Assembly: GCF_000315055.1 (NCBI RefSeq)
Contig: NZ_BAER01000014.1
Location: 62,001-126,000, forward strand
Length of the DNA: 64,000 nt
DNA from: Paraglaciecola polaris LMG 21857
GTDB taxonomy: Bacteria; Pseudomonadota; Gammaproteobacteria; Enterobacterales; Alteromonadaceae
Direction: 5' to 3'
Part shown: positions 56,160 to 61,487 of the stretch, piece after piece
Layout of the letters: every line of letters starts with the position of its first letter
Numbering within the stretch: position 1 is the first letter of the stretch
The notes under the pieces: model-generated
The model's input: the letters and a program-made list of their open reading frames with translations, nothing else
Databases searched by the model: none
What the model was told of the DNA's origin: nothing
Position numbers and translations under genes: made by a program

Positions 56160-56282
56160 TGGGTTGTAAGGTGACAAGATAAAGCGTGGGATTCTGCGTC
56201 TCTGAAAATCCTCAAGCCAGCCTCCGAGTTCATGCTCAGCTATGCTGAAAGGTGCTCAAACCATCAAAAGCGGGAGGCTGTT
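56160..56282 (+). ncRNA. Candidate bridge-RNA region at the left end of the IS110-family element
   Basis: The non-coding stretch directly before the transposase ATG can fold: CAGCCTCC (56218-56225) pairs with GGAGGCTG (56273-56280) and encloses TCAGC/GCTGA (56236-56248). In IS110-family elements the left non-coding end encodes a bridge RNA that guides recombination. Pairing is seen; the RNA identity and limits are inferred. Since the transposase is broken, it may be inactive. Confidence 0.4.
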
Positions 56283-57294
56283 ATGCCATTTTACTGCGGC
56301 ATTGACTTACATTCAAACAATCACGTCGTGGTCGTCATCGATGAAAAGGATAAATAAGGTTGTGGATAAGCGTATCGACAACAATTTGAACATCACGCTC
56401 GAGCTGCTTGCACCTTACAAAGAGCAGTTAAAAGCCGTGGCTGTCGAATCCACTTTTAACTGGTATTGGTTAGTAGGTGGCCTGATGGAACAAGGTTATC
56501 AAATACAACTGGTCAATACTGCTGCCGTCAAACAATACGACGGCTTAAAATACAGTGGTGACCATCAAGATGCGTTTCACCTTGCGCATTTAATGCGCTT
56601 GGGAATATTGCCTACTGGTCATATTTATCCGCCTGAATATCGACAAATACGTGACTTATTGCGCCGTAGGCGGCAATTGGTGAAACATGCATCCAGTCAT
56701 ATAATAAGTATTCAAAATTAAATCTGGCGCTCATTAGGGTATAGAGTCAACTGTGTCGATATTCGTAAAAAGCTCTTCACACTGCCTTTCGAGCCAGGGC
56801 GCTTTTTGTATCATTCAGCCCATAGCAATCTCACCATTCTTAAGACACTAGACAAACAGATTGCCATCATTGAACAACAAACACTGGAAGCGGTGGAGCT
56901 TAAAGATGAATTCAAACTGTTGACCAGCGTGACCGGTATTGGTCCAATTTTAGGTTTGACTATCATGTTAGAAACAGGCGACATCAATCGGTTTGAAGCC
57001 GTCGGTAATTACGCGTCTTATTGTCGTTGTGTCAACAGTGTGCGTGAAAGTAACGGCCAGAAGAAAGGCACGGGTAACCGTAAAGCAGGCAATAAATATT
57101 TGTCATGGGCCTTCTCAGAAGCCGCTCATTATCTTGTTCGATTCGATGCAAAAGCTAAACGTTTTTACGAGCGTAAAAAATAAAAGCGCAATGGTATTGT
57201 GGCTATTCGTGCCTTAGCGCATAAAATCGCCAGAGCGGTATTTCATATGTTAAAAAACAAACAGGCCTTTGATATCGCACGCGCCTTTAGTTAG
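56283..57294 (+). pseudogene. IS110-family transposase, broken by one frameshift and two stop codons
   Basis: Ancestral product about 336 residues. It begins MPFYCGIDLHSNN (first RuvC Asp), continues in the next frame with AVESTFNWYW and SGDHQDAFHLAHLMRLG (the remaining acidic residues), and ends with ITSV-like GIGPILGLTIMLETGD, YASYCR and GTGNRKAGNKYLSWAF. An extra A in GATAAATAAGG (about 56351-56355) shifts the frame. TAA stops at 56719-56721 (…SIQN*IWRS) and 57181-57183 (…YERKK*KRNG) each need one base change. The element cannot make a full transposase. Its ends are not defined by terminal inverted repeats, as usual for the family. Confidence 0.88.
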
Positions 57295-58031: not shown

Positions 58032-58451
58032 CTATTGCTTCACTTCAACTAGTAGTGCTTCATATGTTTTTGGCTCAAATTTGCTGGTAAACCAATTACC
58101 ATCACTCAAAAAAACAATCACTTTTTCGTTTTCAGTCGCGGAACCAGAACCACAGTTTTCTATGGAAGGGTGAATATGATCACTCTGATCCTCTCCTTTA
58201 AGCACTTCGGTTACCGAGACATCTAACATATACGGTGTTACCGAGGGGGAAATTGATTGGTTAATGCCCATTGATTCAGCTTCTTTTTTGACATTATGCT
58301 TATGGGTTACAATACCAATATAAATAGTCTGAGCGGCCGCAGCCCGCTGCTCCAGTGAAACTTTAGCAGGCACGCAGGCGAATGTGCTTGAGCTTAAAAA
58401 CGTCCCTATTATCAGTAGAATTAAGACAGGTAAGTTTTTGCATATAAACAT
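58032..58451 (-). CDS. Small secreted protein resembling TIMP-like metalloprotease inhibitors
   Basis: 139 residues. Signal peptide to Ala25, so the mature chain would begin with Cys (SSTFA/CVPAKVSLEQRA). It continues as a short beta-rich domain with IYIGIVT, LDVSVTEVLKGED, a second Cys100 in ENCGSG and EKVIVFLSDGNW. An N-terminal Cys paired with a Cys about 75 residues later, plus the 'V-x-x-V-L-K-G' strand, is the pattern of the OB-fold TIMP/NTR group; in animal TIMPs the amino group of Cys1 binds the protease zinc. It lies 82 bp downstream of a metzincin-like gene on the same strand. It could instead be an unrelated small periplasmic protein. The lipobox is poor. Confidence 0.6.
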   Translation of the reverse strand: MFICKNLPVLILLIIGTFLSSSTFACVPAKVSLEQRAAAAQTIYIGIVTHKHNVKKEAESMGINQSISPSVTPYMLDVSVTEVLKGEDQSDHIHPSIENCGSGSATENEKVIVFLSDGNWFTSKFEPKTYEALLVEVKQ

Positions 58452-58533
58452 GAATAATTATCTCCAAGAAGTAAAAAGGGCATTAAGCATGTGCTTAAGC
58501 CCAATTTATTATTACAAAAAAGATTAATACAAA

Positions 58534-59670
58534 TTAATCTTTTTTATTCTTTTTGCCAGCAACTACTTCGTTACTGTCGCCAATCAAACGGATATGTGTG
58601 ATAGTTTTTGTGCCGTTGGCATTGTGCTTAACCCACATTTGACTTTTGTGATTACTTTTCACCATTTGCCCATACTCAGATGCATCAACAACAATTTCAT
58701 TAGAGCTGGCTGCGTTAAAACTTGCAGTCAAAGTTACGCCAGAAAATGTGCTGTAAGCTCTTAGCATCACGTGAAAATCACCGCTACCAGACATGTTACA
58801 GGTTTCATTATTTCCATTTAGGTAAGGGCGGCAATCCCAGTTATTTGTTTGTGCCACACTACCAAGTTTAACGTACATATCTGCGTCACCTGAACCTCCA
58901 CTGATAGAAAAGGTGACATTAGTTGAACCAGATGGGACGTGCATATGGAAGTCTTGTTCTGAACGACGTGTGCCAGAAAGGCCTGTTTTTACATCACCAT
59001 TACAAAGATCGCCAGCGTCCCCGTCACATGAAGTAACAGGAGGAGGTGGAGTGCCACCACCAACGTGAGCATAAATCTCGTTTAACAACTCAAAATCATG
59101 AGCATTAGGGTCAATACCATCATCTGGATTGCTAGAATAATCCATACAGGTATCCTGACTCGAACCATTTTCACTGGTATGACCTAAACCGAATAAGTGG
59201 CCAACTTCCTGGCACATTACTCCCCGTTTTTCGTTAACTGTCATAGAGTAACTCTCATTTAATTTGGCAGTACCCCACAAGATATGATTGCTACTATCTA
59301 TGTTCAAAGACGCTAAACCCAACCAGCCATTGGTGCCGTAAGAAGCGTTACATATTCGAATGTTACCTGTAGATATTGAGCAGTTATTTCGAGCTGTTGA
59401 ACCATCGTCGATAGCCGTCACGGTTAAGTATAAAGGTGAGGATATGCCGGTATCAGCACCTGTGTTCCACCAACTATTTGTTTCTTCCATGTAACCTTGC
59501 CACTCACCACTCACACTATCAATGACTGAAAGTTCGGTGGTGTCCCAGTGATAAGCTGAACTTGCAGAGGTCCCTGTTCCCCATACATGAGCGGCAGTGC
59601 TTGGCAGTGCTGTGACAACTGCAATAGCAGCAAGTGAAAGTTGTAATGCATTTCTTTTTATAATTTTCAT
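58534..59670 (-). CDS. Secreted metzincin-like protein with PPC domain
   Basis: 378 residues. Signal peptide to about Ala27 (LPSTAA), then a catalytic-type domain with CQEVGHLFGLGH (Gln154, Glu155, His158, His164) and a Met-turn-like DTCMDYSS (Met176). The first zinc ligand of the usual HExxHxxGxxH is Gln. The Pro/Gly linker at about 205-212 leads to a pre-peptidase C-terminal (PPC) domain (about 214-325; GGSGDADMYVKLG), usually removed after secretion, and a basic tail ending KKNKKD. With Gln at the first ligand it could be a variant protease, a pseudoenzyme or a binding protein. Likely cotranscribed with the TIMP-like gene. Confidence 0.8.
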   Translation of the reverse strand: MKIIKRNALQLSLAAIAVVTALPSTAAHVWGTGTSASSAYHWDTTELSVIDSVSGEWQGYMEETNSWWNTGADTGISSPLYLTVTAIDDGSTARNNCSISTGNIRICNASYGTNGWLGLASLNIDSSNHILWGTAKLNESYSMTVNEKRGVMCQEVGHLFGLGHTSENGSSQDTCMDYSSNPDDGIDPNAHDFELLNEIYAHVGGGTPPPPVTSCDGDAGDLCNGDVKTGLSGTRRSEQDFHMHVPSGSTNVTFSISGGSGDADMYVKLGSVAQTNNWDCRPYLNGNNETCNMSGSGDFHVMLRAYSTFSGVTLTASFNAASSNEIVVDASEYGQMVKSNHKSQMWVKHNANGTKTITHIRLIGDSNEVVAGKKNKKD

Positions 59671-60838: not shown

Positions 60839-61487
60839 TCGGCAAGTAACGTTTATGGCTGAGGGGGACTACGCTGTCTATTTAGATAAACTCAAAGAAT
60901 ATTCAGCTAAGTACCAAGTGCAGGCTCATGTCTTTGTGTTAATGACCAATCACGTACATTTATTGCTGACCCCTTCACCCGAAAAAGGTGACAGCCAGTT
61001 AATGCAGTCTTTGGTGCTATATTATGCTTTGTATATCAACAAAACCTACCGCAGAACCGGTACGCTGTGGGAGGGACGGTATAAATCAACCCTCGTTGAC
61101 AGTGTGCGTTATTTTCTCACGGTGAGTCGCTACATTGAGCTGAACCCTGTTCGCGCGAATATAGTGTTACACCCGGCACAATACTCATGGTCGAGTTACA
61201 GAGGTAATGCACTTGGCGGTGTTATTCGATTCCTCACTTGCCATACTTGTTACCTTTCTTTGGGACGTGATGCTCAAGCACGGCGAAGCGCCTATAGGGC
61301 GTTATTCGATGAAATAATCCCATCGCACACATTGGTGGAAATCCGCGATGTCACCAATAAAGCGTGGGTATTAGGGGATGACAGATTTAAGCAACAGGTG
61401 ACAATACAATCTGGCAGAAGGGCCGAGCCTTTACCTTCTGGCGGAGACCGAAGATCTAAAACGTTCAAGCGCAGTACATTGGATTAA
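60825..61487 (+). pseudogene. REP-associated tyrosine transposase (RAYT, Y1_Tnp family), 5'-truncated
   Basis: Homology starts at QRGNNRQ (codon 60825); about 15-20 N-terminal residues are missing. From ATG 60855 the frame runs 210 codons. It keeps the HUH-type pair MTNHVHLLL, the LWEGRYKSTLVDS stretch and the catalytic Tyr in SRYIELNPVRA, followed by the usual tail (PLPSGGDRRSK). RAYT proteins are single-strand nucleases that move REP palindromes. The 5' end is fused to the SDR fragment over a shared GCAGCGCGG. It could still be translated from ATG 60855 but lacks the first strand of the fold. Confidence 0.82.

Follow-up and report, generated by a model that had tools for sequence, protein, structure and literature searches.

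A secreted QExxH metzincin-like protein and its TIMP/NTR-like neighbour in Paraglaciecola polaris: a candidate protease-inhibitor pair and a bacterial family linked to copper exporters

Pairs of a bacterial metzincin and a TIMP-like protein, as well as bacterial protease-inhibitor operons, are already known. In Listeria, the metzincin Mtz is paired with the TIMP-like lipoprotein Tim, which is cleaved by Mtz (PMC8235301), and in Tannerella, the genes of the secreted KLIKK proteases adjoin those of their own small inhibitors, the potempins (PMC7296668; PDB 8b2n). The QExxH variant of the metzincin site is likewise known from Volvox, in which VMP3 carries a QEXXHXXGXXH site and has a reported preference for copper (Heitzer and Hallmann 2002, as cited in PMC7717551). 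Thus, the expectation of the first-pass annotation that a bacterial protease/inhibitor module would be new or little described is not borne out by the Listeria pair or the Tannerella operons.

The locus considered here lies on the minus strand of a 64,000-nucleotide stretch of the P. polaris LMG 21857 genome, referred to as the window. Its larger ORF (58534..59670, 378 aa) encodes a secreted metzincin-like protein with a QExxHxxGxxH site, as assigned from the ORF, the AlphaFold2 topology and Foldseek, and its smaller ORF (58032..58451, 139 aa) encodes a secreted protein that is predicted, from its model and Foldseek matches, to be TIMP/NTR-like. In agreement with the original description, the ORF calls place the two genes 82 bp apart on one strand, and both products begin with hydrophobic segments ending in Ala, as expected of signal peptides. 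In the large protein, the signal peptide (residues 1-26, 59593..59670) has a Lys/Arg-rich start, a hydrophobic core and the ending ...PSTAA, with Ala26 found in 76/79 relatives; it is followed by the metzincin-like catalytic domain (residues 27-204, 59059..59592), delimited by the model, Foldseek and the alignment. By eye, the pair is flanked by transposase ORFs, namely broken ones of IS110-like type and one of the REP-associated type (56242-57183 and 60855-61487).

The large protein had been credited with a metzincin-type signature and with a metzincin zinc site. However, the canonical motif HExxHxxGxxH/D is absent; the actual motif is QEVGHLFGLGH (residues 154-164, 59179..59211), in which Gln154 occupies the position of the first His ligand, and the site is therefore of the QExxH type. 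The Met-turn, on the other hand, is present as CMDY (residues 175-178, 59137..59148), and so is the PPC domain (PF04151, E=1.3e-10 in Pfam; residues 241-301, 58768..58950), which is located between the catalytic domain and the C-terminal tail typical of the family. The closest solved relative of this domain is 2luw (E=3.5e-22), and alignments identify it as a lineage insertion present in the window and Algicola proteins. Against Pfam Matrixin (PF00413), the window protein scores 14.7 bits, under the cut-off of 24; thus, the metzincin assignment is based on the predicted fold and the family alignment. An AlphaFold2 model built from a 13-member alignment (mean pLDDT 65 overall, with most of the catalytic core at about 72-92) follows the metzincin order, with strand 46-52, helix 55-70, strands 81-87, 103-109, 116-124 and 129-138, the active-site helix 145-159 and the C-terminal helix 190-199. 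The top Foldseek matches in the PDB are MMP catalytic domains (3shi, E=9.9e-5, prob 1.00), with MMP-11, MMP-7, MMP-1/TIMP-1 and MMP-2 among the further matches, together with potempin A in complex with an MMP catalytic domain (8b2n). A metzincin fold is predicted on these grounds. In the model, strand 1 follows the signal peptide after only about 20 residues, which leaves no propeptide, so latency of the protein would need another source.

A scan of 84,980 species revealed 355 relatives of the large protein, the best 80 of which were taken on; they are found in Gammaproteobacteria, Acidobacteria, Actinobacteria, Chloroflexi, Nitrospirota and other groups. In the alignment of 79 relatives drawn from these best 80 of 355, Gln154, Glu155, His158, Gly161 and His164 are each conserved in 79/79, as are Met176, Asp177 and Tyr178 of the Met-turn and Cys97, Cys107, Cys153 and Cys175. 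Since the Gln, the Glu, both His residues and the Met-turn are invariant in 79 proteins of many phyla, the site is under selection rather than decaying. Search bias was considered as the source of the invariant Gln and set aside, because 27 members were recovered solely by a search pattern that lies outside the motif, and these have Gln without exception; Gln is also found in the checked members from whole-genome searches. The large protein belongs to a bacterial family that has no name as yet and in which the QExxHxxGxxH site is invariant; Peptidase_M11 was not among the Pfam families at E<=10 for 13 QExxH members. The large protein probably binds metal via Gln and two His, and it is probably an active protease.

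Further His residues are conserved among the 79 relatives, namely His41 (78/79), His28 (75/79), His191 (78/79) and His202 (76/79). The mature N-terminus (59545-59592 in the window) has the near-invariant form x-H-x-W...YHW, His is also conserved at 129 as well as at 191 and 202, and a His-rich tail ends many relatives. The extra His residues of the N-terminus, of positions 129, 191 and 202 and of the tail are possibly additional metal ligands. As regards the arrangement of the genes, two QExxH paralogues stand in tandem in genome G256 (L023:5155-7074), and two are adjacent on opposite strands in Acidobacteria Centralia_MAG_134 (L096:7727-10888). In Kangiella and relatives (L027, L028 and L029), inspection by eye and neighbour clustering place the QExxH gene beside genes for subtilisin-type-like secreted proteases, an arrangement kept in three genomes.

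The QExxH family is linked to copper exporters. In an all-against-all comparison of neighbouring genes, the heavy-metal P-type ATPase was the family that occurred most often close to the QExxH gene, at 8 loci, and it occurred at none farther out. All 10 of the 10 P-type ATPases in the flanks of the 80 loci (best of 355) have the Cu(I) motifs CPC, YN..P and M..SS, and 9 copper-type ATPases lie within 4.1 kb of a QExxH gene versus 0.42 expected; the corresponding Poisson P of about 7e-10 is indicative only, because the background (77 matches in 40 genomes, about 140 Mb) was sampled in a single order and the loci are spread over different phyla. The four ATPases tested (4/4) score above the cut-off of the copper subfamily TIGR01511, and they also pass that of the cadmium subfamily with lower scores; in one case, at L077, a MerR protein neighbouring the QExxH gene is above the NCBIfam CueR cut-off. 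The linkage is found in about 11% of QExxH loci (best 80 of 355). At the window locus, inspection by eye from 44 to 64 kb of the window revealed no copper-export gene, and the copper ATPases of this genome sit on other contigs. In 72,556 plasmids, the family is represented once, by WP_212728614.1 (L126:11929-12693, motif QEVGHTFGLDH, annotated as 'hypothetical protein') of Streptomyces mirabilis P16B-1 plasmid pI (NZ_CP074103.1). There, a MerR regulator lies beside the QExxH gene in a metal-resistance region whose products include a metal-sensitive regulator, a protein with an HMA domain and a heavy-metal P-type ATPase. By analogy with the behaviour reported for VMP3, the large protein plausibly works with copper.

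Other small secreted proteins are also encoded near QExxH genes. Cys-rich ones (ECECCEYCRCTGCCADC and DCECCDTCQCVSCTGC) are found beside them at L022:1754-2212 (genome G256) and L035:7632-8078, respectively; neither has an NCBIfam match, one of the two genes adjoins copper-type ATPase and MerR-type genes, and the gene at L035 has no counterpart in the genome of the window. A SnoaL/NTF2-like protein, recognized by eye, recurs at L022:998-1480, L054:11004-11576, L049, L060 and L081, and such neighbours are often accompanied by copper-type genes.

The small protein of the window had been described as TIMP-like. Its AlphaFold2 model (pLDDT 81, pTM 0.67) displays the OB-fold of the NTR/TIMP type that had been anticipated, and Foldseek matches it to agrin NtA, the NTR domain of PCOLCE1, TIMP-2 and TIMP-1 (E 9e-5 to 1e-3, prob 1.00), with moderate TM-scores of about 0.5. 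The protein is thus predicted by the model to be a secreted TIMP/NTR-type OB-fold. Cleavage of the signal peptide (residues 1-25, 58377..58451, SSSTFA/C) after Ala25, as proposed, would leave only two Cys residues in the mature protein, Cys1 (codon 58374..58376) and its presumed disulfide partner Cys75 (codon 58152..58154). Cys1 is present in 10/11 aligned relatives, and the core relatives (7/7) have exactly two mature Cys, Cys1 and one at 72-80. N-terminal TIMP domains are held by the disulfides Cys1-Cys70 and Cys3-Cys99 plus a third. This full set is not found in the window protein, with its Cys1 and Cys75 only; the wider relatives L116, L118 and L082 show the N-TIMP pattern of Cys1-x-Cys3 and two later Cys. 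No sequence match to TIMPs was obtained in Pfam, NCBIfam or the PDB sequences. The likeness to TIMPs is upheld by the predicted fold and the conserved Cys1 and Cys72-80, but not by sequence similarity.

The residues preceding Cys1 are informative about its processing. Across the small family, position -3 is A, S or T, with one V, position -2 is F, L, H, V, Q or N, and position -1 is Ala; three members have His, Gln or Asn at -2. A lipoprotein was considered and appears less likely, as positions -2 and -3 of the family members depart from a lipobox. Because these residues suit signal peptidase I better than a lipobox, a free Cys1 after cleavage by signal peptidase I is plausible.

Do the two genes belong together? 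Among 296 genomes of the order, the large gene was found in 12, the small gene in 5 and both in 2. Frequent occurrence of either gene alone, which the first-pass annotation had named as speaking against its reading, is largely what is seen: the small gene is missing from 10/12 genomes that have the large gene, and the large gene from 3/5 that have the small gene. Nonetheless, a gene of the small family lies within 1.5 kb of a QExxH gene at three further loci of the 80 fetched (best of 355), where about 0.0014 would be expected; the probability of two or more such loci is about 1e-6, and 1e-4 even at ten times the density. In Algicola (L035), the small gene is 120 bp from the QExxH gene in the same order as in the window; in Colwellia sp. 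12G3 (L046), it is 173 bp away in the opposite order, small gene first; and at L049 (genome G039), it also comes first, with one gene between. The Algicola locus shares no other gene with the window, and its flanks are not syntenic, so the pair has been retained while its surroundings changed. Between these two loci, the small proteins are 49% identical, the large proteins 84% and their catalytic domains 92%; the small protein has therefore diverged more than the large one. Linkage of the two families thus exceeds chance yet is sparse, and the pairing is optional in both. No relatives of the small protein were found on plasmids.

A terminator-like hairpin separates the two genes of the window (58473..58502, minus strand; GGGCTTAAGC-ACAT-GCTTAATGCCC, then TTTTT), with a fold z of -3.8 as assessed on 58440-58545. 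Algicola L035 has a hairpin of different sequence and the same architecture at the same intergenic place. With such a hairpin and T-tract between them, in the window and in Algicola, the genes do not form a simple operon. Another hairpin (58516-58545), which is AT-rich, perfectly paired over 13 bp and contains A runs and T runs, lies at the metzincin stop codon and may terminate in both directions.

A possible second pairing with a metzincin was examined in genome G644. There, a 962-aa secreted matrixin-like protein with Nidogen-like domains (HEFGHYSNLAHT; L121:2708-6216) has the classical motif HEFGHYSNLAH, and its gene is located 11 bp downstream of one for a small secreted protein that resembles the TIMP-like family weakly. 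Since the similarity is weak and Cys1 is missing, this case was not accepted and remains a lead; the L121 query returned no further relatives in a phylum sample.

The computed folds, conservation and linkage lead us to the following scheme; that the large protein is catalytic, which metal it carries, where the small protein is cleaved and that it binds and inhibits its neighbour are inferences. The large gene would give rise to a secreted, propeptide-less QExxH metzincin-like protease that is probably active and possibly copper-loaded. Cleavage by signal peptidase I would release a small protein with a free N-terminal Cys1 tied to Cys75, and this Cys1 would enter the cleft that holds the metal in the neighbouring protease, as Cys1 of TIMPs does. 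Such inhibition might protect the producer or set the amount of active enzyme, and the intergenic hairpin could set the protease:inhibitor ratio. That the QExxH protease is held in check by its TIMP-fold neighbour is a tentative reading, to which we give somewhat less than an even chance. It is also conceivable, if rather unlikely, that a copper-using QExxH metzincin family in several phyla forms part of copper-stress islands and that some lineages recruited the free-Cys1 TIMP-like inhibitor as a control.

The linkage could also have arisen if the small NTR/TIMP-fold protein had an unrelated job and came to lie beside the protease gene through shared mobility or clustering of secreted genes. 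Elsewhere, genes of the small family are found next to hslV, in a CoA-transferase cluster and near sulfatase-like genes; most metzincin-like genes lack the small gene, gene order varies, transposase-like ORFs flank the window pair, and a hairpin stands between its genes. However, linkage recurs in three separate genomic settings, about 1000-fold over expectation, and the pair persisted despite changed flanks, which makes this explanation doubtful, though it is a serious competitor. Alternatively, the loss of the canonical first His, the copper-gene linkage and the conserved extra His at residues 28, 41, 129, 191 and 202 would suit a pseudoprotease that binds metal, such as copper, or protein ligands, with the small protein binding for another reason or never. 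It is an improbable account, given that the catalytic Glu and the Met-turn are also invariant, which is unusual for a pseudoenzyme, and that the algal QExxH enzyme is reported as catalytically active (cited in PMC7717551). Finally, since in Listeria Tim is cut by Mtz and the phenotype depends on the two proteins together (PMC8235301), the TIMP-like protein might be a substrate or effector that is cleaved and released by the metzincin rather than its inhibitor. Tim, however, is a lipoprotein, whereas the pre-Cys residues here suit signal peptidase I in most members and thus provide no membrane anchor from which the small protein would be released; we regard this relationship as quite improbable.

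The predicted TIMP fold of the small protein bears on whether TIMP-style blocking of metzincins exists in bacteria and also on the origin of the TIMP/NTR fold. The QExxH/copper family is the more novel half of the finding compared with the pair itself. The literature searched, which was mostly without subscription papers, contained no description of a QExxH family in bacteria or of its link with copper. An invariant metal-site swap tied to copper exporters would make the copper-preferring QEXXH oddity of algae testable in easily expressed bacterial proteins.

Comparison with known systems places both halves of the locus. The window protein shares with matrixins (PF00413) the predicted topology, the Met-turn and the best Foldseek matches, but it differs in having Gln for the first zinc-ligand His, a score under the Pfam cut-off and no propeptide. 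With the Volvox VMP3/gametolysin group, it has in common a QExxHxxGxxH site in a secreted metzincin-like protein, whereas the window family is bacterial, has a core of about 260 aa and is linked to copper export genes. The small protein resembles animal TIMPs and NTR domains in its predicted OB/NTR fold and in a mature Cys1 with a partner about 70-80 residues on; unlike animal TIMPs, it has only two Cys, no C-terminal TIMP domain and no detectable sequence match to them. The Tannerella potempins are, by contrast, lipoproteins encoded upstream of their proteases, and PDB searches revealed no sequence relation between them and the window small protein. In Listeria, the genes of a secreted metzincin (Mtz) and of a secreted protein with a TIMP fold (Tim) likewise lie side by side. 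Compared by its published description, however, that pair is prophage-linked, and its Tim is a lipobox lipoprotein cleaved by Mtz, whereas the window pair combines a QExxH protease with a small protein whose lipobox is poorly matched and whose Cys1 is predicted to be free, in a pairing that is sparse.
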